This document shows, in pieces, positions 7,149 through 31,383 of a DNA stretch of 64,000 nucleotides; the stretch's first letter is position 1, and each line of letters opens with the position of its first letter. The stretch comes from Candidatus Dadabacteria bacterium (lineage in GTDB: Bacteria > Desulfobacterota_D > UBA1144 > Nemesobacterales > Nemesobacteraceae). Position numbers and translations under genes: made by a program. The notes under the pieces are model-generated. The model saw only the letters and a list, made by a program, of their open reading frames with translations, was not told the DNA's origin and searched no databases. The stretch is taken from contig JAPPAR010000013.1 in assembly GCA_026705445.1 (NCBI GenBank), positions 1-64,000 of the forward strand, in the 5' to 3' direction.

Positions 7149-7261
7149 CCCCCTGAACGAAAAAGATGCATCTTCAGTACGTTTTTACTCTGCGTTATCA
7201 GGTCTGGAATCCAGCATAGGAGGAAAGCTCAGACTTTTAAACTGCGAACGGTTACATTTTG

Positions 7262-7312: not shown

Positions 7313-8962
7313 ATGCCACGTATCTTCGACAATATTAAGCAAAATCTCCACCCGGCGCTGGCCGAAACCATGGAAGTTTCCGACCGCGCAGACTTCTGCG
7401 TAGGGTACTTCAACCTGCGTGGCTGGCGAACGATTGATCAGCACGTCGAAAAATGGAAGGGGGGAGAAGGTAACTGCTGCCGTCTCCTGGTCGGAATGCA
7501 GCGCCTCCCCCAGGAAGAACTGCACATCGCAAAAAGCCTCTCGGCAGAAGAAGGACAAATGGACAACCAGACCGCATCCCGGCTTAAAACGAAGCTTGCG
7601 GAGGAATTCAGGGAACAGCTTACTATAGGCGCTCCGAGCAACCAGGACGAGGCGGGGCTCAGAAGACTGGCCAGACAGATAAAAGAGAAAAAGGTGATCG
7701 TCAAGCTGTTCCTCCAGTACCCTCTTCACGCCAAGCTCTATCTGCTGTTCCGCCCGGACCCCGTAAACCCGGCGGTCGGCTATCTCGGTAGCAGCAACCT
7801 TACCCTGCCGGGTCTCTGCAACCAGGGCGAGCTGAATGTCGACGTCATGGACCACGATGCCTGCCAGAAGCTCGCCAAGTGGTTCGAAGACCGCTGGAAT
7901 GACCGGTGGTGCGTGGATATTTCGGAGGAGCTTGTCAAAGTCATCAACGAGAGCTGGGCGAGGGAAGAATTGATTCCGCCGTTTCACATCTACGTGAAAA
8001 TCGCCTACCACCTCTCGCAGGAGGCGAGAACCGGCCTGAGCGAATTTCGCATTCCCAGAGATTTCGGCGGCAGACTCCTTGATTTCCAGACGGCGGCCGT
8101 GAAGATCGCGGCGCATCATCTGAACCGCCGCGGCGGGGTCATTATCGGCGATGTCGTGGGGCTCGGAAAGACGCTCATGGCAACTGCCCTTGCCCGCATT
8201 TTCGAGGATGATTACGGACTTGAGACGCTGATCATCTGCCCGAAGAATCTGGTCCCGATGTGGGAAAGTTACCGGGAGGAATACCGGATGCGCGCCCGCG
8301 TTCTTTCAATCAGCCGCGTGATCAGGGAACTGCCCGACACACGTCGCTACAGGCTCCTCATTATAGACGAAAGTCACAACCTCAGGAACCGCGAAGGCAA
8401 AACGTACAGGGTTCTGCATGAATATATAAGGAAAAACGACAGCAAGTGCATCCTGCTCTCGGCGACTCCTTACAATAAAACATACTTGGACCTCTCAAGC
8501 CAGCTCCGCCTGTTCGTACCGGAAGATGAAGAGCTGGGCATCCGGCCCGAGAGACTGCTGCAGGAAATAGGAGAGACCGAGTTCCTTCGCCGACACCAGG
8601 CACCCGTCCGCTCTCTGGCGGCATTCGACAAATCGGAATACGCCGACGACTGGCGGGAACTCATGCGTCTCTACCTGGTGCGCCGAACCCGAAGCTTTGT
8701 TCGGGACAACTACGCGATGACCGACCCTGAAGACGGGCGGAAGTACCTCACGTTCGCAGACGGCACCCGCTCCTACTTTCCGACACGCGCTCCAAAGACA
8801 GTACACTTTGACACAGACGAGCAGTATTCCCGGCTTTTCGCCGACGACACTGTGGACACGATAAACGGACTGGAGCTGCCGCGCTACGGATTGGGTAATT
8901 TTATAAATAATGTAATACCCCCCCCCGTAGCGGTCCGGGGCCGGATGAGTCGAGAGTTCTAG
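7313..8962 (+). CDS. PLD-SNF2 helicase, N-terminal part (frame-broken gene)
   Basis: The first 549 codons of a SNF2-family helicase. The N-terminal third is phospholipase-D-like: HAKLYLL (about residue 139) and GSSNLTLPG (about 158) match the HxK...GSxN PLD signature. The SF2 helicase core begins near residue 250, with Walker A GDVVGLGKTLM (about 280) and the DEAH-equivalent IIDESHN (about 350), then motif III LLSATPYN. The reading frame runs into nine consecutive C (8918-8926) and ends 12 codons later at a stop. One extra C would fuse it to the second half (to 10689), giving one protein of about 1125 residues. It starts with ATG 7313; the family-like start MPRIFDNIKQNL supports this, although no clear ribosome-binding site is present. 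Role by family: ATP-driven DNA translocation in restriction-type defence. Confidence 0.8.
   Translation: MPRIFDNIKQNLHPALAETMEVSDRADFCVGYFNLRGWRTIDQHVEKWKGGEGNCCRLLVGMQRLPQEELHIAKSLSAEEGQMDNQTASRLKTKLAEEFREQLTIGAPSNQDEAGLRRLARQIKEKKVIVKLFLQYPLHAKLYLLFRPDPVNPAVGYLGSSNLTLPGLCNQGELNVDVMDHDACQKLAKWFEDRWNDRWCVDISEELVKVINESWAREELIPPFHIYVKIAYHLSQEARTGLSEFRIPRDFGGRLLDFQTAAVKIAAHHLNRRGGVIIGDVVGLGKTLMATALARIFEDDYGLETLIICPKNLVPMWESYREEYRMRARVLSISRVIRELPDTRRYRLLIIDESHNLRNREGKTYRVLHEYIRKNDSKCILLSATPYNKTYLDLSSQLRLFVPEDEELGIRPERLLQEIGETEFLRRHQAPVRSLAAFDKSEYADDWRELMRLYLVRRTRSFVRDNYAMTDPEDGRKYLTFADGTRSYFPTRAPKTVHFDTDEQYSRLFADDTVDTINGLELPRYGLGNFINNVIPPPVAVRGRMSREF
8918..8926 (+). repeat. homopolymer tract of nine C at the frame break of the SNF2 gene
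   Basis: Nine consecutive C interrupt the helicase gene. Upstream codons are in the frame of 7313. The downstream conserved helicase sequence is in the frame one base earlier. A tract of ten C joins the two halves without a stop (VIPPPRSGPGPDE across the join). The tract is therefore either a slipped-strand phase switch now in the OFF state, a recent inactivating deletion, or a homopolymer sequencing error. Confidence 0.8.
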
Positions 8963-8991
8963 ATGACCTCTCGCGCGCAGGAAAGCGCCTC

Positions 8992-10689
8992 ATGGGGTTC
9001 TGCCGCACCAACCTCTTCAAACGGCTTGAAAGCAGTGGCCACTCGTTTTTGCTTTCGGTAGAGCGCCACCTGCTCCGCAACTTCATCTACATCCACGCCA
9101 TTGAAAACAAAAAGCCGCTTCCGATCGGAGCGACCGACGCGGGACTCCTTGACTCCCTCTCTTTTGACGGGGATGCGGAAAGTGTCAGTGGCGGTCTTTT
9201 TGACGACGGGGAAGGAGAAGTATCCTCTGAACTGAATGCAGCGGAGATGCCACGGACGGAGGAGGAGTTCCGAAAACATTCTGCCAAGGTTTACGAAGTA
9301 TACTCCGACCGGTACAAGGGGCGGTTCCGATGGCTGGGTTCCCATTACTTCACGGAAGACCTGGAAAAGGATCTCAAGGCCGATTCCGCGGCCCTGCTCA
9401 AACTGCTGAAGCGATCCGGCAACTGGGACCCATCCTCAGACGCCAAGCTGGACGCACTTCACAAGCTGCTCGCCAGCAAACATCCCGACGAAAAGATATT
9501 GGTCTTCACCCAGTTCGCCGATACGGTCCGTTACCTTGAGGATCAGCTAAACGCCCGAGGCATGGAAGGGTTAGCCGCCGTCACGGGGGACTCGGCAGAC
9601 CCGACAAAGCTTGCCTGGCAGTTCAGCCCCAGAAGCAACGAGAAAGAGGGAAGCGTCTCACCCGAAGACGAACTGCGTGTGCTGGTGGCCACGGATGTGC
9701 TGAGCGAAGGGCAGAACCTGCAGGACTGCGCCATTGTCGTAAACTACGACCTGCCGTGGGCCATTATCCGCCTGATTCAGAGAGCCGGGCGCGTCGACCG
9801 CATCGGACAGCGAGCCCCTGAGATATTGTGCTATTCCTTTCTCCCGGCCGAGGGAATCGAGCGCCTGATCCGGCTTCGGGCGCGCGTGCGGAGCCGTCTT
9901 GACGAAAACGCCGAAGTCGTGGGAACAGACGAGGCTTTTTTCGAGGACGAGGGACACCGTGTAGTTTCCGACCTCTACAGCGAACAGGCCGGAATTCTAG
10001 ACGGCGACGACGATACCGAGGTCGATCTCTGTTCCTATGCCTACCAGGTATGGCAAAACGCGATAACGGCCGACCCGTCCCTAAGGAAAAAGATCGAGGA
10101 TATGCCGTCCGTCGTCTACTCATCGAAGCACTACAAACCGAAACCCGACCGGCCAGACGGCGTTCTGGTTTACATGCGGACCACCAGGGGATACGACGCT
10201 CTCGCCTGGGTTGACCGCCATGGCAGAAGCGTTACCGAGAGCCAGTTCGAAATCCTGCGGGCGGCCCGGTGTCCGCGCGACGCACAGGCACTTAACCGCA
10301 GCGACAGGCACCACGAACTCGTGCGGAAAGCGGCGGAACACATCTCAAGTGAGGAAAGTCAGGTAGGCGGCCAGCTCGGACGCCCTTCCGGCGTACGGTT
10401 CCGCGTTTACGAACGCCTAAAGAACTACTCGGAAACCGTCAGAGGAACGCTGTTTGACACCAAGCCGCTGCGAAGAGCGATACAGGATATCTATCGCTAT
10501 CCCCCGCTTCCGACCGCGATAACCACGCTTAACCGGCAGCTGCAAAGCGCCATCTCCGATGAAGACCTGGCCAAGCTGGTCATCGCCCTGAGAGAGGAAG
10601 AGCGGCTTTGCGTAGTACATGAAGAAGACGAAAGCCGGGAACCGCAGATCATCTGCTCCCTCGGGCTGGTTAACCGGGAGGAGGGTTGA
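8992..10689 (+). CDS. PLD-SNF2 helicase, C-terminal part (frame-broken gene)
   Basis: The second half of the split SNF2 helicase. The open frame extends back through the C-tract at 8917, so conserved sequence (DDLSRAGKRLMGFCRTNLFK) begins before the ATG at 8992; that ATG is simply the first Met in the fragment. The helicase C-terminal lobe is complete: ILVFTQFADTVRYLED (motif IV region), VATDVLSEGQNLQ (motif V) and IQRAGRVDRIGQ (motif VI, arginine fingers). About 250 further residues of unassigned sequence follow. The stop codon lies two bases before the ATG of the methylase gene, so the two should be translationally coupled. On its own this piece lacks the ATP-binding lobe and would not work as a motor; function depends on correction at the C-tract. 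Confidence 0.75.
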   Translation: MGFCRTNLFKRLESSGHSFLLSVERHLLRNFIYIHAIENKKPLPIGATDAGLLDSLSFDGDAESVSGGLFDDGEGEVSSELNAAEMPRTEEEFRKHSAKVYEVYSDRYKGRFRWLGSHYFTEDLEKDLKADSAALLKLLKRSGNWDPSSDAKLDALHKLLASKHPDEKILVFTQFADTVRYLEDQLNARGMEGLAAVTGDSADPTKLAWQFSPRSNEKEGSVSPEDELRVLVATDVLSEGQNLQDCAIVVNYDLPWAIIRLIQRAGRVDRIGQRAPEILCYSFLPAEGIERLIRLRARVRSRLDENAEVVGTDEAFFEDEGHRVVSDLYSEQAGILDGDDDTEVDLCSYAYQVWQNAITADPSLRKKIEDMPSVVYSSKHYKPKPDRPDGVLVYMRTTRGYDALAWVDRHGRSVTESQFEILRAARCPRDAQALNRSDRHHELVRKAAEHISSEESQVGGQLGRPSGVRFRVYERLKNYSETVRGTLFDTKPLRRAIQDIYRYPPLPTAITTLNRQLQSAISDEDLAKLVIALREEERLCVVHEEDESREPQIICSLGLVNREEG

Positions 10690-13600: not shown

Positions 13601-14177
13601 TTTTGCAGATGATGAGCCAACATACGCTGCATTGGCCGCCACAGCCGGGGAATTTTATTTCTGGTATTGGCTTGTGCGAGGTGATGGTTTTGACGTCACT
13701 AACTGGGTAATTAGTGACTTTCTCAGAGTTCTAGATTTCCTTCCGCCCGAGAATTATGAATTCCTGATCGAATTGGGGCACATGCTTCACTTTGAGCGCA
13801 ACGAGTGGTTAGTGTTCAAGAAAAACGCCGGGCGATACGTAGGAAACTTTAACTACAGAAGGGCGTTCAAGATCACGAGGCGAGCAGACTTGTTAATCTT
13901 CGACGCCTTGTCCTGCAACCGGAAAGAAGCACTTGCAATTTTCGGCTATGTGCAACGGATACTGGCAATAAATGAATACGCTGGAGAAAAAGGAATACCC
14001 GGAACAGTGAAAGCGCGGTTTACTGCTAGCAAGAGAAAAGCGGTGGAAAACGATCAGCTGTTCTCAAAAATTGATTCTCACTTGGCAGAAAATTTTTCCT
14101 TCACAGAAAAAGAAATGGAGTTCCTTATCAATCATGATGTGAATTTGAGTGCCTATTACGAACCAAAAGGACGGTAA
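10692..14177 (+). CDS. Eco57I-type DNA adenine methylase (restriction-modification)
   Basis: A 1161-residue N6-adenine DNA methyltransferase of the large Eco57I/COG1002 type. Motif I is DPACGSGAFLFAAL (about residues 517-530) and the catalytic motif IV is NPPY (about 760-763). The N-terminal 300 residues and the region between motifs are helical. The C-terminal third (after about 770) probably holds target recognition: this part has lower GC and different codon use from the first two thirds, as expected for exchangeable recognition domains. A strong GGGAGGAGGG stretch sits 7-16 bases before ATG 10692; an alternative TTG at 10686 lies inside the upstream stop. Overlapping context with the PLD-SNF2 helicase indicates one restriction-modification unit. 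No separate classical nuclease gene is seen; cleavage would come from the PLD or RecD-like partners (inference). Confidence 0.88.
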   Translation: MPITLDRDKAREHLENFNLRALFIEELGWDHRRGDMEVRIDDRSFTLEKVAHKRGMVAYQYTTESDEKFPDYSTRRKIERFVARTVREHLIVYATQERDAQYWQWVKREPGRPDQNRLHIYSRNQSGEALIQKLEHIAFTLDEEEDLTIVDVSGRVRAAFDTEKVTKKFYDRFREEHKTFLGLIDGFKASDDREWYASLMLNRMMFIYFIQKRGFLDDDRDYLQNRLNRMRASRGKNRFQTFYRFFLLRLFHEGLNQPETARDSELAELLGKIPYLNGGLFDLHELERDNKNIDIPDEAFEGIFKFFDAYQWHLDDRPLRDDREINPDVLGYIFERYINQKQMGAYYTKEDITGYICRNTIIPFLFDQAKKECPIAFEPGGGVWRLLTYDPDRYFYESARHGITHDINENRDLAKTRELPDDIAAGLNDISKRTEWNNTAPRDYALHTETWREHIARREHYNEIRAKIVAGEIVSINDLITYNLDIEKFTQDVIAGSEGPELVRAFWKAISEVSVLDPACGSGAFLFAALNILEPVYIALLEAMRGFLDDLEHSRRKHHPETLSDFRKLLERIDTHANERYFILKSIIVGNLYGVDIMEEAIEICKLRLFLKLVAQLEDYDQIEPLPDIDFNIRPGNTLVGFTSLKEVKRNLSADMINQLSLPEIEQRAEIAGQTYQDFRRMQTDCDMDVLALANTKLRLREQLEGLQTKLDNYLARIYGIDTEDEAAYVQWRSSHQSFHWFVEFYDIMQDGGFDVVIGNPPYVSVRKIPYEILGPLAQKFSDIYGHFLSRSLVLTVPEGRCGMIVPLSITFSRDFKALRENLSNWGAAWFSSYDNIPAALFAGVSQRCTIWIGHNSGTEIFAAPMYRWRTFCRPHLLTNLSYVPVKNLNIEELGLPKVAELSHTSVLSAISSTKLRKYRAAISEGSGNKAYLSFSQSGRNFISVFLEDPPCVDAVSLNNITPSKIGRLTFADDEPTYAALAATAGEFYFWYWLVRGDGFDVTNWVISDFLRVLDFLPPENYEFLIELGHMLHFERNEWLVFKKNAGRYVGNFNYRRAFKITRRADLLIFDALSCNRKEALAIFGYVQRILAINEYAGEKGIPGTVKARFTASKRKAVENDQLFSKIDSHLAENFSFTEKEMEFLINHDVNLSAYYEPKGR

Positions 14178-14295
14178 TTCCGAACGAAAAGGGGCGAATT
14201 CAGTCGTAATATGCACCAGATAAAAAGTTGGACAACTTACACTCTTTCAGCCTCGGTACCAACGAAAATGGAAACTTAACTCACACGCAATCGGT

Positions 14296-14841
14296 TTATT
14301 CCTGCATCCACTCTACAGCACACTTTTTGCGACCTTCCTGATAAAACTCGTCTTTTGCCTTTTTCATTGCGCACACAATGGTCAGGTTTTCTTGTTGTCT
14401 CGAAACCGCTTCTTCCCAAGACTGCACCTTCTTCTCGTAAGGAACCTGATCTTCCTTATCTAAAATACTTCTGGCTTTTTCCAATTCCCTTTCGGCAAGT
14501 TCCAGCGTATATCTATAGTCTTTCAAACGCTTTCCTACACTATACAAATGGAATTCGGCAACTGTCCATGACTCGGACCTGAAGGGGAAAGCTTTCTCGG
14601 TTCCAGTCATTTCTTTTACTTCTTCGCAAAACCTCTCTATGCCTCTGGGAGTAGATGTATCTTTAGCTTTAACTCTCTCTTTTCTTTTAGACCACCTATT
14701 TAGCTCGCTGCCTAACTCTTTCTTCCCCTTTTCAGATAAGACTTCTGCCTTAAACCCGCAAGGGGAGACAAACTCGTTGGAAGCAAAAGCCGTATGGGGA
14801 AAAATCACTCCTGCCAGTACCAGCGCAAGTATTGTTCTCAT
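14296..14841 (-). CDS. secreted hypothetical protein
   Basis: A 181-residue protein with a clear Sec signal peptide: MRTILALVLAGVIF followed by an AFAS cleavage region at about residues 18-21. The mature part is charged and mostly helical, with a possible coiled coil (ELAERELEKARSILDKEDQ, about 110-130) and three to four Cys residues (SPCGF, RFCEEV, VCAMK, KKCAVEW) that could form disulfides in the periplasm. No family is recognised. The start is ATG 14841, preceded by AGAGGTG at a suitable distance. It sits alone between the methylase (opposite strand) and the decayed AbiE pair, and shows no sign of being in either unit. Function unknown. Confidence 0.65.
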   Translation of the reverse strand: MRTILALVLAGVIFPHTAFASNEFVSPCGFKAEVLSEKGKKELGSELNRWSKRKERVKAKDTSTPRGIERFCEEVKEMTGTEKAFPFRSESWTVAEFHLYSVGKRLKDYRYTLELAERELEKARSILDKEDQVPYEKKVQSWEEAVSRQQENLTIVCAMKKAKDEFYQEGRKKCAVEWMQE

Positions 14842-14970
14842 ATGTTCACCTCTTTCGGGATGCTACCCGATAGGCCTCCCTTCATTCTGTAATATGCAAC
14901 CAAGATAAAATTTGTGTACTCCAATACTACCAAGAAAGATAGCAAGTAAACCAGCTACAGTTTTTACTCC

Positions 14971-15255
14971 TCACCACTTGAATTTCAGGCATAACACAAA
15001 CGAAATCGAATTACTCTCCTTTAAAAGCTTCATTTCAGCCTTGATTGCTTCCATCTTCTCGCGGATATCCCGAAATGCCTGATCACGTTCACTCACCGGC
15101 AGATAACACAAATCAATGTCCACGGAAAATCTCGGACAGTCATGAAAGAAAAAATTAATAGCCGTGCCGCCCTTCAATGCAAACACCTCCTTTGTCGCGG
15201 CAATTCGCAGCGTCTCAAGCAGCAAAGCAGATTGCTTTTCATAGCCTCGCATCAT
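14971..15255 (-). pseudogene. truncated AbiEii nucleotidyltransferase toxin
   Basis: The first 94 residues of an AbiEii/AbiGii-type toxin. The nucleotidyltransferase signature is intact: FALKGGTAINFFF and FSVDIDLCYLP (GG(T/S) and DxD motifs). Family members are about 300 residues; the intact copy at 36937-37857 has 306. Here the similarity stops near residue 85 and the frame ends after an unrelated tail (VLCLKFKW), so the C-terminal two thirds are gone. The start is ATG 15255, which overlaps the stop of the abiEi gene in an ATGA arrangement, as expected for translationally coupled AbiE pairs. It is likely inactive as a toxin. Confidence 0.8.
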
Positions 15256-16049
15256 GGATTCACCCAGGTCTCGGGAACTGTTATCTTGAATCTTGAGTTC
15301 CAAAGCCCGCCGTTTACGACGTGACGGCCTCCCGAACCAAGTTCAATGGACTCCAGATTCAATTCGCCATACCATTGGTAATCGACAATTTCGGCAAGCG
15401 CGAGGAACAATCGCTTTGCCTTTACCGAACGACATGCGCGCAGAACGCTTTGCAGAAGCCCGGGACGCAGCGTGGACAAACCTTCCATAAGCTGCCTGGC
15501 CTCTTCAAAATCCGCACAGTTCGGCAGCAGATAGCAATACTCAAGCATGGCCCGTTCGGGCGCACTCGTCCTAAGCGAAAACTCTCCGACACGCAAATCT
15601 TCCAGACCCTCGGAAACCGGATCAAATAATGCGGGGGCATTGAAAACCTGCAGATTCCTGGCAAACCGTTGCTGCCTGAACCACCGGGGCAGACTAGTGT
15701 TCTGTCCGATGCCGAGATACAGGACAGGACTCTCTCCAAGCGGCAGGTAATGCAGGCGCCCATAATACCCAAGCGCCGTGCACGCCGCCGGATAAACCTC
15801 TCCGGGCCGTTCCCGCTGCAGGGCGTAGAGCGACCCTGACAAGGTAGGTTCCGTGCCCGCCCTTACCCAGGCTCCCCGCCCAAGGGAACTAAGCCAGCCG
15901 CTGCTTTTATATCCCTGAAGCAGCTGCGGAGAAACCCGTCGTGAGGACAGCCACTTGCTGGTCATGGGAACACCCGCAGGATTCTCAGCGAGAATGCGGT
16001 TGATTCTTGTTCCCCTGAGTGTATCTTCACCTGTTTTTAAGTAATCCAT
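15252..16049 (-). CDS. AbiEi-type antitoxin
   Basis: A 265-residue AbiEi family antitoxin/transcriptional regulator. The N-terminal winged-helix region (about residues 1-75, with LLQGYKSSGWLSSLGRGAWVR) recognises DNA in known AbiEi proteins. The C-terminal domain (about 80-265) contains the conserved APERAMLEYCYLLP and a SVKAKRLFLALAE segment near the end. In type IV AbiE systems this protein represses the operon and neutralises the AbiEii nucleotidyltransferase. Here the protein is full length while the coupled toxin gene is truncated, so it may persist as a free regulator or as protection against other AbiEii toxins (inference). It is distantly similar to the second AbiEi at 36081-36944, sharing the YKSSGW/YVKRGW and SVK(A/V)KRLF landmarks. 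Confidence 0.85.
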   Translation of the reverse strand: MDYLKTGEDTLRGTRINRILAENPAGVPMTSKWLSSRRVSPQLLQGYKSSGWLSSLGRGAWVRAGTEPTLSGSLYALQRERPGEVYPAACTALGYYGRLHYLPLGESPVLYLGIGQNTSLPRWFRQQRFARNLQVFNAPALFDPVSEGLEDLRVGEFSLRTSAPERAMLEYCYLLPNCADFEEARQLMEGLSTLRPGLLQSVLRACRSVKAKRLFLALAEIVDYQWYGELNLESIELGSGGRHVVNGGLWNSRFKITVPETWVNP

Positions 16050-16151
16050 ATCAATGACGCTGCAATTAGTGTAGCCCCGTGAACTAAACCATCGTAATTT
16101 AAAATCTGGAATACAGATAAAATTATATTTTATTTAAAAAGAACATTCTGG

Positions 16152-18563
16152 TCAAATGTCTTCACTTCCAAGTACTGCCTTTCCAGTATTCAATCTGAAT
16201 GAATCGTAGTCTTTACGGTAATCACAACCCGGACAGAACACCTCGCGTTTTTGCGAATCTTCGTTTAACCGCACATCTAATCTGACAGTTTCACCCTTTG
16301 TCAGACATGTGGGACAGGGCGCTTCTCTTTCCGTGTAGCTACAAAGCCCTTTTCCGAAGTTCGTGCACCCAAGAAATATGGAATACGGCGGAGGATTGCT
16401 CCTTACCCTTCTTACAAGACCTCCCATCCATCTCCCCTGAACAAGTCCCTTGCTGAAACACTCAGGACACGGTCCGACAACATCCTCCCTCAAAACAGCA
16501 TCATTGAACCTGACATCAAGACACCCGCATATCTCTTTTATCTCCGCTGTAAAGGATGACGGCTGAACAGACTGGTTAACCAGAAAGACTTTCTCTCTGG
16601 CCCTGGTCATGGCCACGTACATAACCCGCCTCTCCTCCGAATTCGGGTAGCCGTCTCCCGGAGGCAGAAAGACCGAGAGCAAGGGATCCTCCTCTCCGCA
16701 GCCCGGAAAGCCCTTCATGCCCGAATCCATTCCCAGCACGATAACGATATCATCCTCAAGACCTTTTGACCTGTGGATCGTCCTCCTGGATATCCTGAGA
16801 TCGTCCCTGAAGGCCATAAGTTCTCTGTGGCTAAGGGGTTCAATTTCCCTGTTCTTCCGCCCCAGGATAAAAACCCCTTTTCTTTTGTCCGACCTTGGAA
16901 TCAGGTTAAGAACCCTTTTCAGGTTATCGCTGTCATAACGGTCAACGGAACATATGTTGACGGCGGGAAAGTCGTCATCCGGCGGGCGGGAGCGAACGGA
17001 TTTTCTGATCTGGGCCGGGTTTTTCTGGATAAACTCAGAAGCAACGTCGGATACCGGTCTGCACGTACGGAATGTCTCCTGAATCCTGTAAGTCTGCGGC
17101 TTAAACAGACGGACATCCCGCCCCGACATCCCGTCTTCCGCAACCAGAGGGCTTTCAGATTCGGAAAACTCTTTCATCGCCATGCTGTCTGAGCCGGTAA
17201 ACCTGTAGACCGACTGCCAGTCATCTCCCACAGCGAAGAGACGGGAATCCGCAGCAAGTATGCGGGCGAGGAAATTCTTTCTGGCTTCCGAGATGTCTTG
17301 GAACTCATCCACAAGGACATACTTGTACCGATCCGGAAGCGCGCCATCCATCTCGGCGCCGCTTAAGTGGCGGACAGGCCCAAGGATCATGTCCTCAAAA
17401 TCTATGGTGCCGTTTTCACGAAGAATCTCCTCGTAGGTCTCAAGTACCGGAAGGAAAAATCTTTTGAAAAGGCCGCTTCTGAACTTGTCGCGAAGGGAGT
17501 CAAGCCGCACGGAAAGACCCCCCGGCGAAAGATCGTTCGCCTTGGCAAGCTTTATGCATCTTGCGATCAGGCTGTACGTATCGTCCGAGTAAAGGGACTC
17601 AAGGCGTTTCTCTGTATATTCTTTTGAGGGAGGGTCATAGGAGATGCCCTTTTCCTCAAGCTCCCGGAAAATTTTCTCAATCACGGTGCCCTCGTAATAT
17701 TCGTAGCTATAGGTAAAAAGAAAATCCCCTCCCCGCTCCTCATAGAATTTCTTTTTCTGTCGCACTGTCTCCGCGTAGCCTTCAAAGGGGGAGCTGCCGT
17801 CCCTCTGGATCGCGAAATGTTCATGCCAGAGATCTATTTCCGGATAATAGAAATCCGGGGTCATTTCTCCGTCGGGATGCGGCCTTTCATACTCGACTTT
17901 CACTCCCCTTATTATCAGGCTGTTTATGATAGCAAGCTCCTGCTGGGACCTGACCCAGTATCTTGCGTCAAGACTCGGTATGCGCTGCGCTCTCAGTTCC
18001 CCACCGAGCCGGAATGATTCTCTTTTGTAGGGATAGCTTGTAACAGTTTCGTTGTATTCCCTTTCATCCCGGACAAATTCTTCTATCTGGTGGTACGGAC
18101 ACTCGGCCCTGAACTCAGAAATCCATTTCCCGATCTCAGGATGCTTGACCTTTGCCCTCTCGATTATCCCAAGTACGTTTGCCGTGTCGAGAAGACCGTC
18201 TGAAGAGGATTCCGCAAGGGGGTCAAGCTTTCTTCTCCCCCCTATCCTCTTAAGCAGTTCAAGACCGAACCCGTGGAATGTGTAGACTTCGGGGCGGCCG
18301 ACTCCGGGGACAAGCTTTTTTATCTTTTCTCCAAGCTCCTGCTCTATCGACTTGTTAAAGGCGAGAACCAGAATCTCCCGCGGGGCAGCGAGTTCTTCTC
18401 TTATCAGAAAGACATACTTGCCAAGTAGCGTTGTTGTCTTCCCTGAACCGGCTGACGCTATTACAAGCGTCCTGTAGGAATCATCGACTATGCAGAGTCT
18501 CTGCTCCTGGGTAAGGGGATGGGCAAACAGGGAGTCAAAAAGTTCTTTGTGCTTAAGCAACAT
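16152..18563 (-). CDS. UvrD-type SF1A helicase with inserted nuclease-like module and zinc ribbons
   Basis: About 803 residues. Counting from the chosen start, Walker A ASAGSGKTTT lies at about residues 36-45. A nuclease-like insert follows at about 205-285 (E of VRSQQE, then TPDF and WHEHF). Walker B YVLVDEFQD is at about 415-423, DDWQSVYRF at about 447-455, and motif VI YVAMTRAREK near 625. The last 130 residues hold paired Cys motifs (CPEC, CPTC, CPGC and others) resembling topoisomerase-type zinc ribbons. This layout resembles HelD/helicase IV more than UvrD itself. ATG 18563 is chosen because AGAGGGG precedes it; an in-frame ATG at 18581 overlaps the upstream stop. Either way it is coupled to the NACHT-like NTPase gene. 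Likely role: DNA translocase/nuclease of a defence operon (inference). Confidence 0.85.
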   Translation of the reverse strand: MLLKHKELFDSLFAHPLTQEQRLCIVDDSYRTLVIASAGSGKTTTLLGKYVFLIREELAAPREILVLAFNKSIEQELGEKIKKLVPGVGRPEVYTFHGFGLELLKRIGGRRKLDPLAESSSDGLLDTANVLGIIERAKVKHPEIGKWISEFRAECPYHQIEEFVRDEREYNETVTSYPYKRESFRLGGELRAQRIPSLDARYWVRSQQELAIINSLIIRGVKVEYERPHPDGEMTPDFYYPEIDLWHEHFAIQRDGSSPFEGYAETVRQKKKFYEERGGDFLFTYSYEYYEGTVIEKIFRELEEKGISYDPPSKEYTEKRLESLYSDDTYSLIARCIKLAKANDLSPGGLSVRLDSLRDKFRSGLFKRFFLPVLETYEEILRENGTIDFEDMILGPVRHLSGAEMDGALPDRYKYVLVDEFQDISEARKNFLARILAADSRLFAVGDDWQSVYRFTGSDSMAMKEFSESESPLVAEDGMSGRDVRLFKPQTYRIQETFRTCRPVSDVASEFIQKNPAQIRKSVRSRPPDDDFPAVNICSVDRYDSDNLKRVLNLIPRSDKRKGVFILGRKNREIEPLSHRELMAFRDDLRISRRTIHRSKGLEDDIVIVLGMDSGMKGFPGCGEEDPLLSVFLPPGDGYPNSEERRVMYVAMTRAREKVFLVNQSVQPSSFTAEIKEICGCLDVRFNDAVLREDVVGPCPECFSKGLVQGRWMGGLVRRVRSNPPPYSIFLGCTNFGKGLCSYTEREAPCPTCLTKGETVRLDVRLNEDSQKREVFCPGCDYRKDYDSFRLNTGKAVLGSEDI

Positions 18564-18573
18564 AATCCCCTCT

Positions 18574-21500
18574 TTACTCATCAGTACTGACATCAATCAC
18601 GCAGACTGATATTTTGCGGGATTCATCTTCTGACAGGACGGATTCTATGCTTTTTTTCAGTTCCTGAAAATCGCACGGCCGCATACCGGAAGGCAACGGG
18701 CTAGAGTACTTTTCGCCAAACCAGAACACCAGATAAATACCGTATCCCCCGGTGGCCGGGTCTCTCGTGTACAGGGCGATCAGCTGATTCCTTAGGGAAC
18801 TCAGCAAATCCCTGCTTCCGTTCTTTTTAATCTCTATGGGAACACGAAAATCCCCGCATGAAGAAACCAGTATATCGGTTCTCCTGTCATTGACATACTG
18901 ACCTTCGGGCTGGGCATCGATCCCCTTCGGAAGAAATCCTCGCAGATCCGAAAGCAGAATATCGCGACAGGAATTTTCATGCCTTGGGTTGTGCGGTCTC
19001 CCATGGGAATCTTCGTTCCAGTACTTGCGCCACTCATCCGTATTGTCCGTTCGAACTCTTTTGGCGATCTCGTTCAGCCTGTCCACCAGAAGAGCCGCAA
19101 GGTCAGCGACGTTGGCTGGCGCTTCGTTACTGAATGTCCGGCAGACCCGCTCGATGTCAGGATGCCGGTAACCGGCATCATTGCGGGTTGTCCGATGGAC
19201 TTCCGACATCCTGGCCAGAACGTGATGACAACGTTCCAGAATCGGGTCGGCTTGAAGTCTCCTGAGCGCATCGCCTGATCCCTCATCGGCGGCAAGGTGT
19301 TCTATCAGGTCGTAAACAAGGCCTGAGAACTGCTTTTCAGGCGTAGTGACCCCGGGCTCAGGACTCAAAGCAGGTTCAAAGTAACTTCCGATAAGGCGGA
19401 TCAGCAACTCCAGTTCGGGAATTTCAAGTTCATTCAGCAGGAACCGCCGAGGATTTCCAAGCGCCAAAAAGGCCGCCAGATGCCGAACCCTGGCTTCCCG
19501 ACCCTGCGTAAAATTCTCTAACCGGTCTTTATATATTTCCGGGCTGACAATCAGACCCGCAGCGAGCCAGCGCGAGCGCAGGGCGACGTTCAGGCTCCCA
19601 AGCTTGAGCTTCCTGGCGACAAGCTCCCCAAGGGCATCCCTGTCGGCATACTTAAGGGCCGCCCAGAGCAGATAATCCATATTCCGAATCTGCTTCAGAT
19701 TGCACTGAACCGGAAAGGATTGAAGCAGGGGCAGGCTTACAATGCGGCTGACCTGAGCATGGCTGTTATTTCGGGCGAGTTCCCGAAGCTTGCGAATATC
19801 CTCCATGCCGCTTCGAAAACCGGAAACGGCAAATCGTGCCTGAGTTTCGGCCACGATCTCAGGACGCGTCCTGACAAGCCGCAGGTACCATCTGGGTTCA
19901 TAATTTCTGACGCGCGCGAGATAATAAAAAAGAAGCGCCCTGCTAATACAGTCTTCTCCCCATAGTGAGGAGTCTTGCGGCTCCGTTCTTTCGACTTCCG
20001 CCAGACCCGCGAGCAAAGGCAGTCCGACAGGGTGCGTTCTGCCTTTGCTCAGAAGATCGAAAATCTCATCGGCGCAGGGGATATCCTCCCGTTCAGTTGT
20101 GCCGCGAAGTCCCGCAAGCGCAGCCCTGGCCAGATCGCCGTGGCCGGGAAACCGTTTCCTGATATTCTCCGGACCGTAGCAATCCTTCCAGAAGTAATAG
20201 TTTTCAAAATATATCTCAGCGATTTCGTGAAGCAGTCCAGGGTGAGCGACGTTTGCGCGCAAGGCATCCCTGTTGGCATAAACATGGTCTATCCACCGGC
20301 TGTCTTCATTTTCTTCTTTTTCCACATGACTCCCCCCATCTTCTCTCCACGGAAGCCTGTTCTCCTCCCCCGTTTCCGCAAACAGACACCTCAGGACGTC
20401 AGATAAATTTTCACTGTTTCTCGTGGTTTCCCGGAGAACTTCAAGGGACAGTCCTTCGTTGCCGTTTTCATACTTGTGCGCCTGGGCGGCCTGCATGAGC
20501 AGAAACCGGGATGCTTGCGGGCGGCTCTCCTGCATTGCAAGAGCTCTTTTCAGGCACCAGAGACCAAAATCGGGTGGAGGAGTCGCCCCATACAGCCGCC
20601 CTTGCATATTGAGCGCGTGATAACTGAATTCAGCGGATTCGGGGCATCGGCGAAGACCTTCTTCAAAAACAGTCTTTTGAATATCAGGGGACTGTTCAAG
20701 CCAGGCACGTATCTGACTAGCCGGTTCCAGACAATATTCATCATGCTTTACATTCTCGGACAATCCGACACCGAGCCAGTCATAAAGACGCCCTCGGCCT
20801 ATTCGGTTTCCATGCATCTGCAGGCCGCAAACCAGAAGCCTGAGGGGAAGATCATTGAGGAGCCAGGCGTCAAAAGCGGTTCGCAAACCGGAAATCCGCC
20901 GCCACAGACTGTCTAAAAGTTCCTCCACCTCAAGTTCATCCACCTCTGGATTCTCTAAAAATCTGTCACAAAAAGCAGATTGCCAGAACTGCCAGTATGT
21001 GCCTTCTGACTCCCGGCCTGTCGGCTCGTAAAGGTAATCCCAAATCTCAGATGGAGACAATTGCCGGGGGTAGAGTTTCAAAAGCAGCGTCCCGAGGAGT
21101 TCGTTGTCAGGGTCGGAGATGCTTCCGTCGTGAATATCCGCCAGCAATGCTTTGAGTCCACCCGTAATCTCCGAATCTCTCTGATAGCTGGAGATATATG
21201 CGTCAAGGGCTGATTTGTTAATGTAAGGCAGCCAGGTGTTGTCACGGACGATTTCCAGCAGAATCTCGGAGGAATCCGGCATGAATTCATATTGTTTCAA
21301 AACGTCTAATACGAACTCGGTTAATGCCTGATGCCGTTCGCTGCGGCGTGGGCTGGTCAGAACATCTCTGAAAACAGACTCCATTTCAGGAGTGGTAAGC
21401 GTCCTGTACACATTGACCACCGTGAACGCGGAACCTGGTCGGTACCTCTCACGGCACAGGGCTTCGAGAAGCGCCATATTCTCTTCATTCGACAATGCGC

Positions 21501-22635
21501 TGATATCTCCGTAGAGAAAGATGCCGACAGGATTGCGCTTGATGAGTTCCGCACGGATTTTCTCGCAATGGACCGCGAGCCACGCGCAAAGACCTCTCAT
21601 CTGCGAGACCACGATTCCGTATTCTCCGGTAACCAGAGCGAGTATCCGCCGGGGTGGAACTCCTTTGTCAATCAGGCGGGCGAGGCAGCGCGCGCCGAGA
21701 AATTCGGCAATGCATTGATGAACGGGAACAAAACGACTATTATCGGATTCCGCCTCAAACAGCCCGGTTGAAAGCGCAGCACCGAGCGCCTCATCGTGGT
21801 AGTAGCTGAAACGGTCAAGATCCAGATAATATTCATCCGCGGAATCACAGCCCCGCGCGAATCCGGCGGACCCGCAAACCAGCGAAACGGCGCAGAGATA
21901 CCCAGCGGCGTCAAGAAGCTGGCAAGTGGTAAACTGTTGTCCCTCCCTGTGTTCTTCATTATGCTCCCGGATCATCTGTGAACAGGCCTTCTCAAAAGTC
22001 TCAAGAAGATTTTCCGGCCACCCGCCATCTTTGACAACACTGCTGATCAGCAAGTTAAGATTCTGCGGGTTTGCCAGCAGTCCTCTCACTCCCCGTTTCC
22101 AGGCCGACGCGATGAATTCCCGGGCGTCGCGGATGTCCGGATGCCCGTCCAGGATACTGACGACATCCGAGTCCGTCAGGGGATCAAGGAGCAGGACAGT
22201 TGCTGCGGAATCTTTCGACACGCGCGCCAGGTGTTTCAGGTCGTTTTCCCCCAGCCAGTCCGCGCCTCGGCACGAAATACGAAAGCGTGGCCTTCCAAGC
22301 TTGTCAATGCGGCTGCGGATTTTATCAAGAGCAGTACGCGTGTTGTACGCGCCGGCGCGAATTTCATCAAGTCCGTCAATAAAAAGAGCCCTGTCCCGCC
22401 ACTCGGGATGACTGTCCGGGTCAAGAGCGAGGAAATCGCGCGCAGTGATAAAGCACGCGTCGTCTCCGAGTGCTCCACATTCGGTCTTAAACGCAGTCGT
22501 TTTGCCGGAACCGGGGTTGCCCAGCAGCACATAGGCCGCGACGGAGCGAAACTCTTCCAGGGGCAGGGAGCCATTATTCCGGTCCGAATCCGGCGGCAGT
22601 ATCTCCTTGCACGTGCGTGGGACGATCTTGTTCAT
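18574..22635 (-). CDS. NACHT-like STAND NTPase with C-terminal PD-(D/E)XK motif
   Basis: A 1353-residue protein. The N-terminal NTPase has Walker A GNPGSGKT (residues 39-46), a NACHT-style Walker B LFIDGLDEIR (84-93) and a sensor-1 segment RFRISCRG (117-124). About 900 residues of helical, repeat-like sequence follow and could form a sensor superstructure. Near the C-terminus, RRTDIL (D at 1254) and PIEIKK (E1268, K1270/1271) form a PD-(D/E)XK nuclease pattern. STAND NTPases of this plan are known immune sensors in bacteria (Avs, bNACHT), but the usual order there is effector first; here the nuclease-like effector is last. It starts with ATG 22635, overlapping the stop of the AAA_14 gene by ATGA with GAGGAAAG upstream. 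It ends just before the helicase start. Function in defence is inference. Confidence 0.8.
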   Translation of the reverse strand: MNKIVPRTCKEILPPDSDRNNGSLPLEEFRSVAAYVLLGNPGSGKTTAFKTECGALGDDACFITARDFLALDPDSHPEWRDRALFIDGLDEIRAGAYNTRTALDKIRSRIDKLGRPRFRISCRGADWLGENDLKHLARVSKDSAATVLLLDPLTDSDVVSILDGHPDIRDAREFIASAWKRGVRGLLANPQNLNLLISSVVKDGGWPENLLETFEKACSQMIREHNEEHREGQQFTTCQLLDAAGYLCAVSLVCGSAGFARGCDSADEYYLDLDRFSYYHDEALGAALSTGLFEAESDNSRFVPVHQCIAEFLGARCLARLIDKGVPPRRILALVTGEYGIVVSQMRGLCAWLAVHCEKIRAELIKRNPVGIFLYGDISALSNEENMALLEALCRERYRPGSAFTVVNVYRTLTTPEMESVFRDVLTSPRRSERHQALTEFVLDVLKQYEFMPDSSEILLEIVRDNTWLPYINKSALDAYISSYQRDSEITGGLKALLADIHDGSISDPDNELLGTLLLKLYPRQLSPSEIWDYLYEPTGRESEGTYWQFWQSAFCDRFLENPEVDELEVEELLDSLWRRISGLRTAFDAWLLNDLPLRLLVCGLQMHGNRIGRGRLYDWLGVGLSENVKHDEYCLEPASQIRAWLEQSPDIQKTVFEEGLRRCPESAEFSYHALNMQGRLYGATPPPDFGLWCLKRALAMQESRPQASRFLLMQAAQAHKYENGNEGLSLEVLRETTRNSENLSDVLRCLFAETGEENRLPWREDGGSHVEKEENEDSRWIDHVYANRDALRANVAHPGLLHEIAEIYFENYYFWKDCYGPENIRKRFPGHGDLARAALAGLRGTTEREDIPCADEIFDLLSKGRTHPVGLPLLAGLAEVERTEPQDSSLWGEDCISRALLFYYLARVRNYEPRWYLRLVRTRPEIVAETQARFAVSGFRSGMEDIRKLRELARNNSHAQVSRIVSLPLLQSFPVQCNLKQIRNMDYLLWAALKYADRDALGELVARKLKLGSLNVALRSRWLAAGLIVSPEIYKDRLENFTQGREARVRHLAAFLALGNPRRFLLNELEIPELELLIRLIGSYFEPALSPEPGVTTPEKQFSGLVYDLIEHLAADEGSGDALRRLQADPILERCHHVLARMSEVHRTTRNDAGYRHPDIERVCRTFSNEAPANVADLAALLVDRLNEIAKRVRTDNTDEWRKYWNEDSHGRPHNPRHENSCRDILLSDLRGFLPKGIDAQPEGQYVNDRRTDILVSSCGDFRVPIEIKKNGSRDLLSSLRNQLIALYTRDPATGGYGIYLVFWFGEKYSSPLPSGMRPCDFQELKKSIESVLSEDESRKISVCVIDVSTDE

Positions 22636-23885
22636 CTTTCCTCAAACCACTGATTCACGGGCACCGTCAGAAACTCATGAAGCGGTACGCCGCCTTCTCC
22701 GACAAGAAGCGAACGATGGACACCGAAATTCCGCTTAAACGCTTCAATTCCCCCGAGACGCGCGGACTTCCGGCCGCTTTTCACTTCAACGGGAATAAGA
22801 TGGGGGCCGCGCCTGAGGACGAAGTCGACCTCAAGCGATTTGTCCCGCCAGTAATGGACGCTGATATCGGGTGTCGCGGTGTTTGACATGTGAGCACCGA
22901 CCGCACTTTCAACAATGCGTCCCCTGAATGTCCGGTCCGCCATGGCTTCTTCAAAGGAATACCCGGAACCGACAGTCATCAAAGCGGTGTTGAGCACGTT
23001 TAGTTTGGGGCTTGATCCCTTGCGAAGATGAGGTTTGTTATGATACTTCCCGAAACCTGCGAGGAGACCCACGTCCGACAGCAGGTCAAGGTAGCGCGCC
23101 AAGGTGGTCGTGTTGCCGGCATCCACAAGTTGGCCCAGCATTTTGGTGTACGAAAGAATTTGCCCTGAATAATCCGCTCCGTGTTCGAAAAGCCGTTTGA
23201 GAAGTTCCGGCTTGTCCACCCGCGTCATGGAGAGAATATCCCGGCCGATACTGGAACTGACGATAGCCTGGAGAATATGAGCGCGCCACCGGTCCATGTC
23301 CTGAACGAACCTGGCTGAGCCCGGGTAGCCGCCGAAATACAGGTACTCGTCCAGACTGAAACCGAAGGCTTTGGACATTTCCTCGAAGGACCAGTGCGCG
23401 ACGCGCACAGGTTCAAAACGCCCGGCAAGACTCTCGTTAAGTCCTGACTGCATGAGCAGAGGCGCCGAACCCAGAATAACTGCGTGCAGAGGGCAATCCC
23501 TGGCGCGGTCGGCATCCCAGAGACCCTTCAAGGTCTGTGACCACTGGGGAATTCTCTGAATTTCATCCAGCGCCAGAACGAATCCCCGCCCGGATCGCTG
23601 TGCTTCGCGACGGGCCTCCTCCCAGTTCCGCACCAGCCAGTCTGTGCCGCGCTCATATGAAAAAACCGGAATTGTTTCTGATTCATCGTACGAACCACGC
23701 GGCCCCGGAGGCCGAGGTTCGTCAACCGCCAGGTAACGGCTCCCGAGATCTATCTGTCGAAGCGCCTGGCGCACTATGGTGGTTTTTCCGGTCTGGCGAG
23801 GCCCGAAAATGGTAATGATGTGATGGGGATGTTCGGCCAGTCGATCGCAAAGCGTGGCAACCTGAGAACGCTGAAAAGATTTCAT
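22632..23885 (-). CDS. AAA_14/DUF4143 family ATPase
   Basis: A 417-residue ATPase. Walker A is FGPRQTGKTTIV (about residues 28-39), Walker B FVLALDEIQ (about 101-109), and the C-terminal DUF4143 domain contains LEVDFVLRRG and PVEVKSGR, a PD-(D/E)XK-like D...ExK arrangement near the end. This is the usual length for the family, which is widespread, often in variable genomic regions, and biochemically poorly defined. Normally these genes stand alone; here the stop codon overlaps the start of the NACHT-like NTPase gene (ATGA), making it the first gene of a three-gene operon. The start is ATG 23885. There is no ribosome-binding site, and a -10 box lies 10 bases upstream, so translation is probably leaderless. 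Confidence 0.87.
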   Translation of the reverse strand: MKSFQRSQVATLCDRLAEHPHHIITIFGPRQTGKTTIVRQALRQIDLGSRYLAVDEPRPPGPRGSYDESETIPVFSYERGTDWLVRNWEEARREAQRSGRGFVLALDEIQRIPQWSQTLKGLWDADRARDCPLHAVILGSAPLLMQSGLNESLAGRFEPVRVAHWSFEEMSKAFGFSLDEYLYFGGYPGSARFVQDMDRWRAHILQAIVSSSIGRDILSMTRVDKPELLKRLFEHGADYSGQILSYTKMLGQLVDAGNTTTLARYLDLLSDVGLLAGFGKYHNKPHLRKGSSPKLNVLNTALMTVGSGYSFEEAMADRTFRGRIVESAVGAHMSNTATPDISVHYWRDKSLEVDFVLRRGPHLIPVEVKSGRKSARLGGIEAFKRNFGVHRSLLVGEGGVPLHEFLTVPVNQWFEER

Positions 23886-24413
23886 ACAGATAAAATTATA
23901 CTATTGAGTAAAAGTAGTCAAGAGGACATTTCATTAAAGAAGAACAATATTCCATCAGGAGAGCGCCGTATCTCCCTGATCTCTGCATACCACTATGATG
24001 ATGTCCTCAATGACCACTCTGTGGACAATTCAGTTAAAGCAGTAACTGATATGATAGAATAGAATAGTTCCCCGAAAAAAAGCGAACATGGAAAACATCG
24101 AAAAACAGACAAGGCAATCCTTTCAAAAAACAAAAAAACGGAAAACATACCTGCTGACGAAAACCTGTGTCGCCTTGACCCGGAGAACACGCTTGCCCGC
24201 GAAACCAGGGCGACGTCCAGGAAGGTTCATCAACAGGAACAAAGAAGCAGACGATGATCTTGCAAGCGTAACCAGCTTTCTACTCGGGATTTCGCGCCGA
24301 AATACGGTCCATCAGCCAGTACCGCCGAACACAGCAGCAACCGGGGATTTGCGGAGCCGGACCTTATGGTGTATGAAGGAGCGGTAAGTGAAAAACGAAG
24401 AGACGGGGGTGTC
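23886..24413. other. 528-base gap without a supported gene
   Basis: Apart from the promoter at its left edge, nothing convincing is visible. Short open frames exist on both strands (for example a 99-codon plus-strand frame from 24088), but they lack a ribosome-binding site and protein-like composition. The left 200 bases are AT-rich. No tRNA-like or strong hairpin structure was noticed. Confidence 0.4.
23895..23921 (-). promoter_or_regulatory. promoter of the AAA_14-NACHT-helicase operon
   Basis: On the minus strand TTGACT (23921-23916) and TATAAT (23900-23895) are separated by 15 bases, slightly short of the optimum. Transcription would start about 3 bases before the ATG at 23885, giving a leaderless mRNA. 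No Shine-Dalgarno sequence is present, which agrees with that. Confidence 0.5.
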
Positions 24414-30141: not shown

Positions 30142-31383
30142 CTACTGCCAGAGGGCGGAGAGAGGAACGGCAAGGAACCTCTCGCCGAAAGGAACCACAT
30201 CCTCTCCCGGGTAAAGAACGACTCCGCAGACAAAATCATCTTTTGCCAGGTCCCGAAGCGCTTCCATGCCTTTAAAATCGGATGAAACAACCCGTTTCGA
30301 AGCCTTTACCTCGATACCGGCAACCGAACCGTCCGGGCGCTCCAGAACGAAATCCACCTCCTTGCCGTCAGCAGTACGAAAATGAAAGAGTTCCGCCCGC
30401 ATATCGGAGAAGGAAAGCAGCTTTCGAAGCTCGGAGGCGACGAAGTTCTCGACCGCGTGACCGTAAAAATCGCTCCATCGGCCGCTCGGGCCCTCAAGGC
30501 TCCGGCCAAGCAGATGACAAAGAAGAAGAGTATCGACGATATAACCTTTGGATGACTTCACGAGCCGTTTTCCGACGTTTCGGTACCATGGCCTGACGTC
30601 AAAGCTGAGGAACATAGCCTGAAGAATCCCGCGATAGCTTTTGCCGGTAACCTGGTTAAGTCCCACGTCGCGCGCAATCTCGGCATCATTCATAAGTTTG
30701 CCGGCGCGGGCCGCCAGAACCCTGAGCAGTCTCGGCAGAATGCCGATTTTCTCAAGCTCGGTAATCGTGCGCACATCACGCTGCAGTATGGTTGCAAGAT
30801 AGCCGTCAAACCACTCCTCTCGTTCGTGTGCGGGTTTTCCCGATACTTCAGGAAACGTGGCTGACTCAATAGCTTCGCTAAGCGCATATTCCTTTCCCAT
30901 GTCGGCAAAATCGGCTGAAAAAAGTCTCTCTGGAAAATTTCCTTCCGCAGAGAAAACCTCGCAGGCTGAAAACGGATAAAGGGTTCTTACGCTCATACGT
31001 CCGACAAGGGAATCGGAGAGCTTCGGCAAAACCATTATATTCGCCGAACCCGTAAGCAGGAACATGCCGTTGCTCCTCCCCTCCCCGAGGCGCGCTTCGT
31101 CAACAACAATCTTCAGGGCGCGGAACAGGTCGGGAACCAGCTGAACCTCGTCAATAATCACCGGTCCCCCGCGACGGCCGAGAAAACTCTCGGGAGAGGC
31201 GTAGGCGGCCTCCATATGAGTAACGTTGTCAAAAGATACGTACTCGGCGGGATACTCATTGCGGGCAAGCTCCCGCACAAGCGTGGTTTTGCCCGACTGA
31301 CGCGGGCCATTGAGAAACACCACGGGATTCTGCTTCAGGGAAAACAGAACCTTCCCGGACAATTTCCGTGCCTTGTAATTCAT
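30142..31383 (-). CDS. AAA_14/DUF4143 family ATPase (second copy)
   Basis: A 413-residue ATPase of the same family as the one at 22632-23885 but clearly a different subgroup. Walker A is NGPRQSGKTTLV (about residues 25-36), Walker B GPVIIDEVQLVP (about 91-102), and the C-terminal DUF4143 part carries KEVDFVLERPDG and GIEVKASKR, a D...ExK nuclease-like pattern. It stands alone, in contrast to the operonic copy. ATG 31383 has AAGGAGC upstream. An AT-rich region (31384-31440) supplies several possible -10 boxes. Function of solitary members is not established; they are common in variable regions next to toxin-antitoxin genes. Confidence 0.87.
   Translation of the reverse strand: MNYKARKLSGKVLFSLKQNPVVFLNGPRQSGKTTLVRELARNEYPAEYVSFDNVTHMEAAYASPESFLGRRGGPVIIDEVQLVPDLFRALKIVVDEARLGEGRSNGMFLLTGSANIMVLPKLSDSLVGRMSVRTLYPFSACEVFSAEGNFPERLFSADFADMGKEYALSEAIESATFPEVSGKPAHEREEWFDGYLATILQRDVRTITELEKIGILPRLLRVLAARAGKLMNDAEIARDVGLNQVTGKSYRGILQAMFLSFDVRPWYRNVGKRLVKSSKGYIVDTLLLCHLLGRSLEGPSGRWSDFYGHAVENFVASELRKLLSFSDMRAELFHFRTADGKEVDFVLERPDGSVAGIEVKASKRVVSSDFKGMEALRDLAKDDFVCGVVLYPGEDVVPFGERFLAVPLSALWQ

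Follow-up and report, generated by a model that had tools for sequence, protein, structure and literature searches.

Genes and features of the locus

The window, meaning the whole stretch of DNA that was analysed, comprises 64,000 nucleotides and forms the first part of contig 13 of a 1.78 Mb genome of Candidatus Dadabacteria, an uncultured bacterium. The genomes compared with it were MAGs, of which G001-G013 belong to the same genus as the window genome; sampling covered part of GTDB (1599 genome searches), and one scan of genome contigs relied on six short peptide patterns. Three minus-strand open reading frames lie at 22632-23885, 18574-22635 and 16152-18596, where a preliminary description of this DNA had placed them. 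The features considered here are the following:

23895..23921, minus strand: promoter-like element, TTGACT-15-TATAAT, separated by 9 nt from the ATPase ATG (kept in L011 and L012)
22632..23885, minus strand: AAA_14/DUF4143 ATPase of the PDC-S01 type, 417 aa (Pfam, PADLOC PDLC04791, 17-row alignment, dN/dS ~0.11)
18574..22635, minus strand: EruA-like STAND protein, 1353 aa (NCBIfam NF058535.1, family alignments, dN/dS ~0.23)
21661..22551, minus strand: NACHT module and winged-helix motif of this protein, residues ~29-325 (Walker A/B motifs, H....E(F/Y)L, NLRP14 match)
18577..19053, minus strand: predicted C-terminal PD-(D/E)XK-type nuclease region, residues ~1195-1353 (conserved residues, AlphaFold2 topology, weak PDB fold matches)
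18562..18574, no strand: junction at which the two-gene cassette meets the resident helicase and homology ends
16152..18563, minus strand: gene resembling UvrD/helicase IV, encoding 803 aa if read from the likely ATG (absent at 5/5 other pair loci)

The ATPase and NACHT genes do overlap in an ATGA at 22632-22635, and the helicase gene begins close to the stop codon of the NACHT gene, both as previously described. Its likely start is the ATG at 18563, about 10 nt past that stop, the TTG at 18596 being merely the first mechanical start.

All three genes had also been ascribed to a single promoter. What stands of this claim is a promoter-like element before the ATPase gene, kept at two other loci, which makes a shared promoter plausible. 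The window, L011 and L012 have TTGACT-15-T(A/G)TAAT in common, 9 nt ahead of the ATG, so that the transcript would be almost leaderless. A simple promoter scan did not pick up this element because its spacer measures 15 nt. Judged from its conservation, it is plausible that the pair of ATPase and EruA-like genes carries its own promoter.

The spacer contains a candidate operator, the 12-mer TTTTACTCAATA (23902-23913). The genome contains it only twice, here and at G000:C19:184220-184231, and each copy lies shortly before a PDC-S01-type ATPase gene. A related motif, in either orientation, precedes all ten Dadabacteria ATPase genes that were inspected, and it forms an inverted repeat in several loci. 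With a motif this short and ATPase genes that share ancestry, the operator reading is only suggestive, and autoregulation of the ATPase through a motif of this type is possible.

Other candidate defence genes occur in the window. A full-length PADLOC candidate, PDC-S68, lies at 3381-7148 (1641.8 bits). Two adjacent open reading frames at 7313-10689 resemble the halves of one HKD+SNF2 helicase (PADLOC C3a139), perhaps through a frameshift or a split gene.

The ATPase and the EruA-like protein

Pfam matches bear out the AAA_14 and UvrD assignments made previously for the first and third proteins. The ATPase displays the Walker A motif GPRQTGKTT and a nuclease-like DUF4143 site (E326, E352-x-D354, E367-x-K369). 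The PD-(D/E)XK-like residues reported for it are indeed conserved, with E352, D354 and E367 invariant and K369 nearly so across 17 relatives. PADLOC family PDC-S01 (PDLC04791) covers residues 4-414, the full length of the protein (E=5e-153). The fold search returned AAA+ matches only, and residues 209-295 were modelled poorly. ATPase genes showed dN/dS values of 0.09-0.12, equal with and without an EruA-like partner. The window encodes a second, different ATPase of the PDC-S01 type at 30142-31383 (PDLC04790, E=3e-133).

The second gene matched the NCBIfam model NF058535.1, "NACHT domain-containing antiphage protein EruA", in one stretch running from residues 16-1350 of the protein to positions 7-1318 of the 1318-position model (E=2.3e-251, 837.7 bits). 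The equivalog cut-off of this model is 1000 bits, and all six Dadabacteria copies score below it (778-943 bits, best 942.5); hence, we call the protein EruA-like and not a curated equivalog. No Pfam or PADLOC family matched it. The NACHT assignment of the preliminary description is upheld by a profile built from 22 relatives, which matches the NACHT domain of NLRP14 in the PDB (E ~3e-6). Walker A (GxPGxGKT), Walker B (hhhDxxDE) and the winged-helix motif H....E(F/Y)L are conserved across 24 relatives, which makes the STAND/NACHT motif set of the EruA-like protein complete.

Nuclease-like residues had been noted in this protein as well, and they were found at the C-terminus: E1220, D1254, E1268-x-K1270 and Q1284 are kept in about 22 of 24 relatives, the exceptions being one truncated and one divergent sequence. 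The structure prediction that had been suggested as a check was run on this C-terminus. An AlphaFold2 model of the last 234 residues (12 sequences, pLDDT 73.7) displayed the helix-strand-strand-strand-helix-strand order of PD-(D/E)XK enzymes. Foldseek placed SfsA, NucS/EndoMS, Can2, R.BspD6I and SduA among the top matches of the nuclease model, none of them significant (best E 0.04).

Identity to the nearest relatives outside Dadabacteria is about 22-36% in the NACHT part and 33-38% in the nuclease, and falls to 13-19% in the middle (residues ~451-975). This pattern fits a fast-changing sensor flanked by a switch and an effector that are themselves conserved. The EruA-like genes are under purifying selection, with dN/dS of 0.22-0.30 (about 0.23 for the window copy). 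Judging by its sequence, the second gene is a divergent relative of EruA in which a NACHT module, a variable helical middle and a predicted C-terminal nuclease follow one another.

A search of IMG/VR viral contigs recovered no relative of the NACHT protein, and phages yielded one fragmentary match. None was found in E. coli genomes by a comparison at the DNA level, a weak test because it uses nucleotides alone. In the literature searched, we found no paper on EruA or HyoA as antiphage proteins (an unrelated E. coli regulator bears the same name), and the main text of DefensePredictor holds no link to either name.

These matches refine two earlier proposals. The defence role has good support in the case of the NACHT protein, through the antiphage EruA family, and reaches candidate level for the ATPase, through PDC-S01. 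It counts against a new three-gene system that the ATPase and the NACHT protein both match catalogued families.

Distribution of the pair and the helicase junction

The EruA-like gene is found at six Dadabacteria loci, each time directly behind an ATPase gene. Relative to the window, the other pairs are L011 (the same as L009, 85% identical), L012 (the same as L010, 63%), L013 (38%), L015 (39%) and L014 (63%), the last being a second copy in the window genome, on contig 42 (positions 2639-7689 of L014). The two genes overlap by 4 nt in the window, L011, L012, L014 and L015, and by 1 nt in L013. The L014 ATPase has lost its NTPase half and kept DUF4143; its EruA-like frame is intact, with a branch length of 0.12 against 0.11 for its sister.

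In the phylogenetic trees, the paired EruA-like proteins formed one clade (SH-aLRT 100), and the five intact paired ATPases formed another together with the solo ATPases L097 and L098 (100/99). These solo ATPases share their chromosomal site, beside rpiB/asd/dapA, with L013 and L015, and the flanks are collinear at mostly 85-92% identity. At this orthologous site two species carry the ATPase alone and two others the ATPase with the EruA-like gene, which accounts for 4158 bp in L013 where L097 has 139 bp. The most parsimonious account is that the two genes were paired once and moved together to several places, and that the EruA-like gene was lost once.

Outside Dadabacteria, on plasmids and in other genomes, EruA relatives have no such ATPase adjoining them, one Paracoccus plasmid aside (plasmid-derived rows were left out of one alignment). 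The Paracoccus DUF4143 gene was considered as a further pairing and rejected: it lies downstream of the EruA relative and is only distantly similar, and since DUF4143 genes are common we judge the adjacency a coincidence. The neighbouring genes are often defence genes, among them Ppl, AbiE, Abi, pAgo and Avs2.

The closest relative of the window pair, L011, is flanked on one side by a long pAgo-type protein that has AlbA_2/HATPase domains and on the other by one resembling Avs2 (3852-7238 and 14134-18294), and a radical SAM gene follows 12 nt past its EruA-like gene.

The helicase displays a different distribution. All five other pair loci lack it, and its orthologues occur in G007, G008, G011 and G013 at 74-93% identity, four genomes from which the EruA-like gene is absent. 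In G011 (L093) and G013 (L094) the helicase is found at the chromosomal position that corresponds to the window, next to an EamA gene and without the pair; in L094, a type IIG restriction enzyme also lies beside it, as at the window place. The interval that the pair fills in the window is only about 0.6 kb long in L093 and contains a DUF4062/HATPase gene in L094. The window is homologous to the pair loci as far as 18575-18587 and to the helicase loci as far as 18557-18562, which puts the junction at the gene boundary itself. The helicase orthologues start with a membrane-anchor-like stretch (in L093, MEIFLLLFLIAAFIFFVAFQKK...), whereas the window copy is without it, the loss falling exactly at the junction. 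The insertion thus removed the helicase's own 5′ end, and the near-contiguity of the three genes is a by-product of that insertion.

The closest NCBIfam model to the helicase is DNA helicase IV, at 264.7 bits and below the cut-off of 543. The PDF..HEH motif described for it is present and shared with a plasmid relative at ~32% identity. The orthologues in L094 and L095 are broken by frame breaks, and that of L093 has a stop near its end, through either assembly error or decay. An AbiE module adjoins the helicase at 14971-16049, with an intact AbiEi and an AbiEii reduced to a 110-aa fragment, and helicase relatives on two plasmids are also near AbiE genes.

We conclude that the pair was inserted ahead of a resident helicase gene to which it is unrelated. 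It is the ATPase and EruA-like genes that make up the conserved unit, and the helicase is a neighbour outside it. The test of co-occurrence thus separates the genes that had been proposed together: the three of them recur at 0/5 other pair loci, and the ATPase and NACHT genes are conserved together within Dadabacteria. Transcription may now run on from the pair into the helicase, and a local dependence may have newly evolved.

Proposed function and comparison with known systems

Our preferred interpretation, to which we give a probability of about 0.62, is that the pair is a two-gene defence cassette: an autonomous EruA-like STAND nuclease that would destroy DNA upon infection, accompanied by an ATPase that is an accessory with a function of its own. 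The mechanism is drawn from the EruA family and from general STAND biology. By analogy, the variable middle of the EruA-like protein would sense an infection signal, the ATP-bound NACHT modules would oligomerise, and the clustered C-terminal nuclease would cut DNA, so that phage growth is stopped or the cell is killed. The ATPase gene forms the promoter end of the operon and would be translated in step with the EruA-like gene; contact between the two proteins is conjectural. The accessory role is favoured because the ATPase is conserved independently and EruA relatives stand alone elsewhere.

The same pair could be an obligate two-component system, in which the ATPase is a sensor, licensing factor or restraint that the Dadabacteria nuclease needs, a reading we regard as possible but doubtful. 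All six Dadabacteria EruA-like genes lie directly behind an ATPase gene with overlaps of 1-4 nt, one pairing event was kept through movement to several chromosomal places, and every Dadabacteria EruA-like gene is accompanied by the ATPase gene, whole or in part, which fits an obligate pair too. Given this strict one-way association, the ATPase may gate the nuclease. However, EruA relatives elsewhere do without the ATPase, the ATPase is conserved alone under equal constraint, and in L014, where the ATPase has no NTPase half, the branch of the EruA-like protein does not exceed that of its sister in length.

Participation of the helicase as a functional third component, the new three-gene system that the preliminary description had put forward, is very improbable. 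The helicase start about 10 nt past the NACHT stop and its purifying selection (dN/dS ~0.1) would agree with it, but the helicase is missing from every other pair locus, occupies the corresponding chromosomal position in the sister species G011 and G013, which have no pair there, lost its own 5′ end at a junction that coincides with the gene boundary, and has outside relatives that are not adjacent to EruA-like genes. We also find it improbable, if somewhat more conceivable, that the pair serves the maintenance of the chromosome or of a mobile element, with the nuclease acting in repair or plasmid competition. Many EruA relatives are plasmid-borne, and ATPase relatives on Thermus and Bacteroides plasmids lie among ordinary metabolic genes; against this, the closest named family is an antiphage protein, and the neighbours are often defence genes.

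The two-gene defence cassette with an accessory ATPase would extend EruA-type immunity to a little-studied phylum, and presents a STAND nuclease whose partner gene is inherited along with it. Because species with and without the EruA-like gene next to the ATPase occur naturally at a single orthologous site, the role of the ATPase partner can be tested. The locus is also a clean example of a cassette insertion that mimics a three-gene operon. A further and tentative proposal, which we consider unlikely as a whole, is that a STAND nuclease that is solo elsewhere once gained a dedicated ATPase, itself a catalogued candidate, in a near-leaderless operon with a gene-specific operator, and that this ATPase gates the nuclease.

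Among known systems, the helicase shares a UvrD-family core with Gabija GajB and DNA helicase IV, and Pfam and PADLOC detected no GajA-like family among the scanned neighbours at the locus. The bacterial NACHT proteins bNACHT25 and bNACHT32 combine a NACHT module with a PD-(D/E)XK nuclease at the N-terminus, within a tripartite layout of N-terminal effector and C-terminal sensor (PMC12169576). The EruA-like protein departs from this layout, as its NACHT module begins at about residue 29 and its putative nuclease is C-terminal. HyoA, another NACHT domain-containing antiphage protein (NF058534.1), gave a partial match of 163.7 bits, far weaker than that of EruA. The resemblance to EruA itself is full-length and colinear, although the score falls short of the 1000-bit cut-off. 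The ATPase matches PDC-S01 end to end; PADLOC lists this family as a single-gene candidate, whereas here it is found in an operon with an EruA-like gene. EruA relatives outside Dadabacteria have no PDC-S01 ATPase adjoining them.
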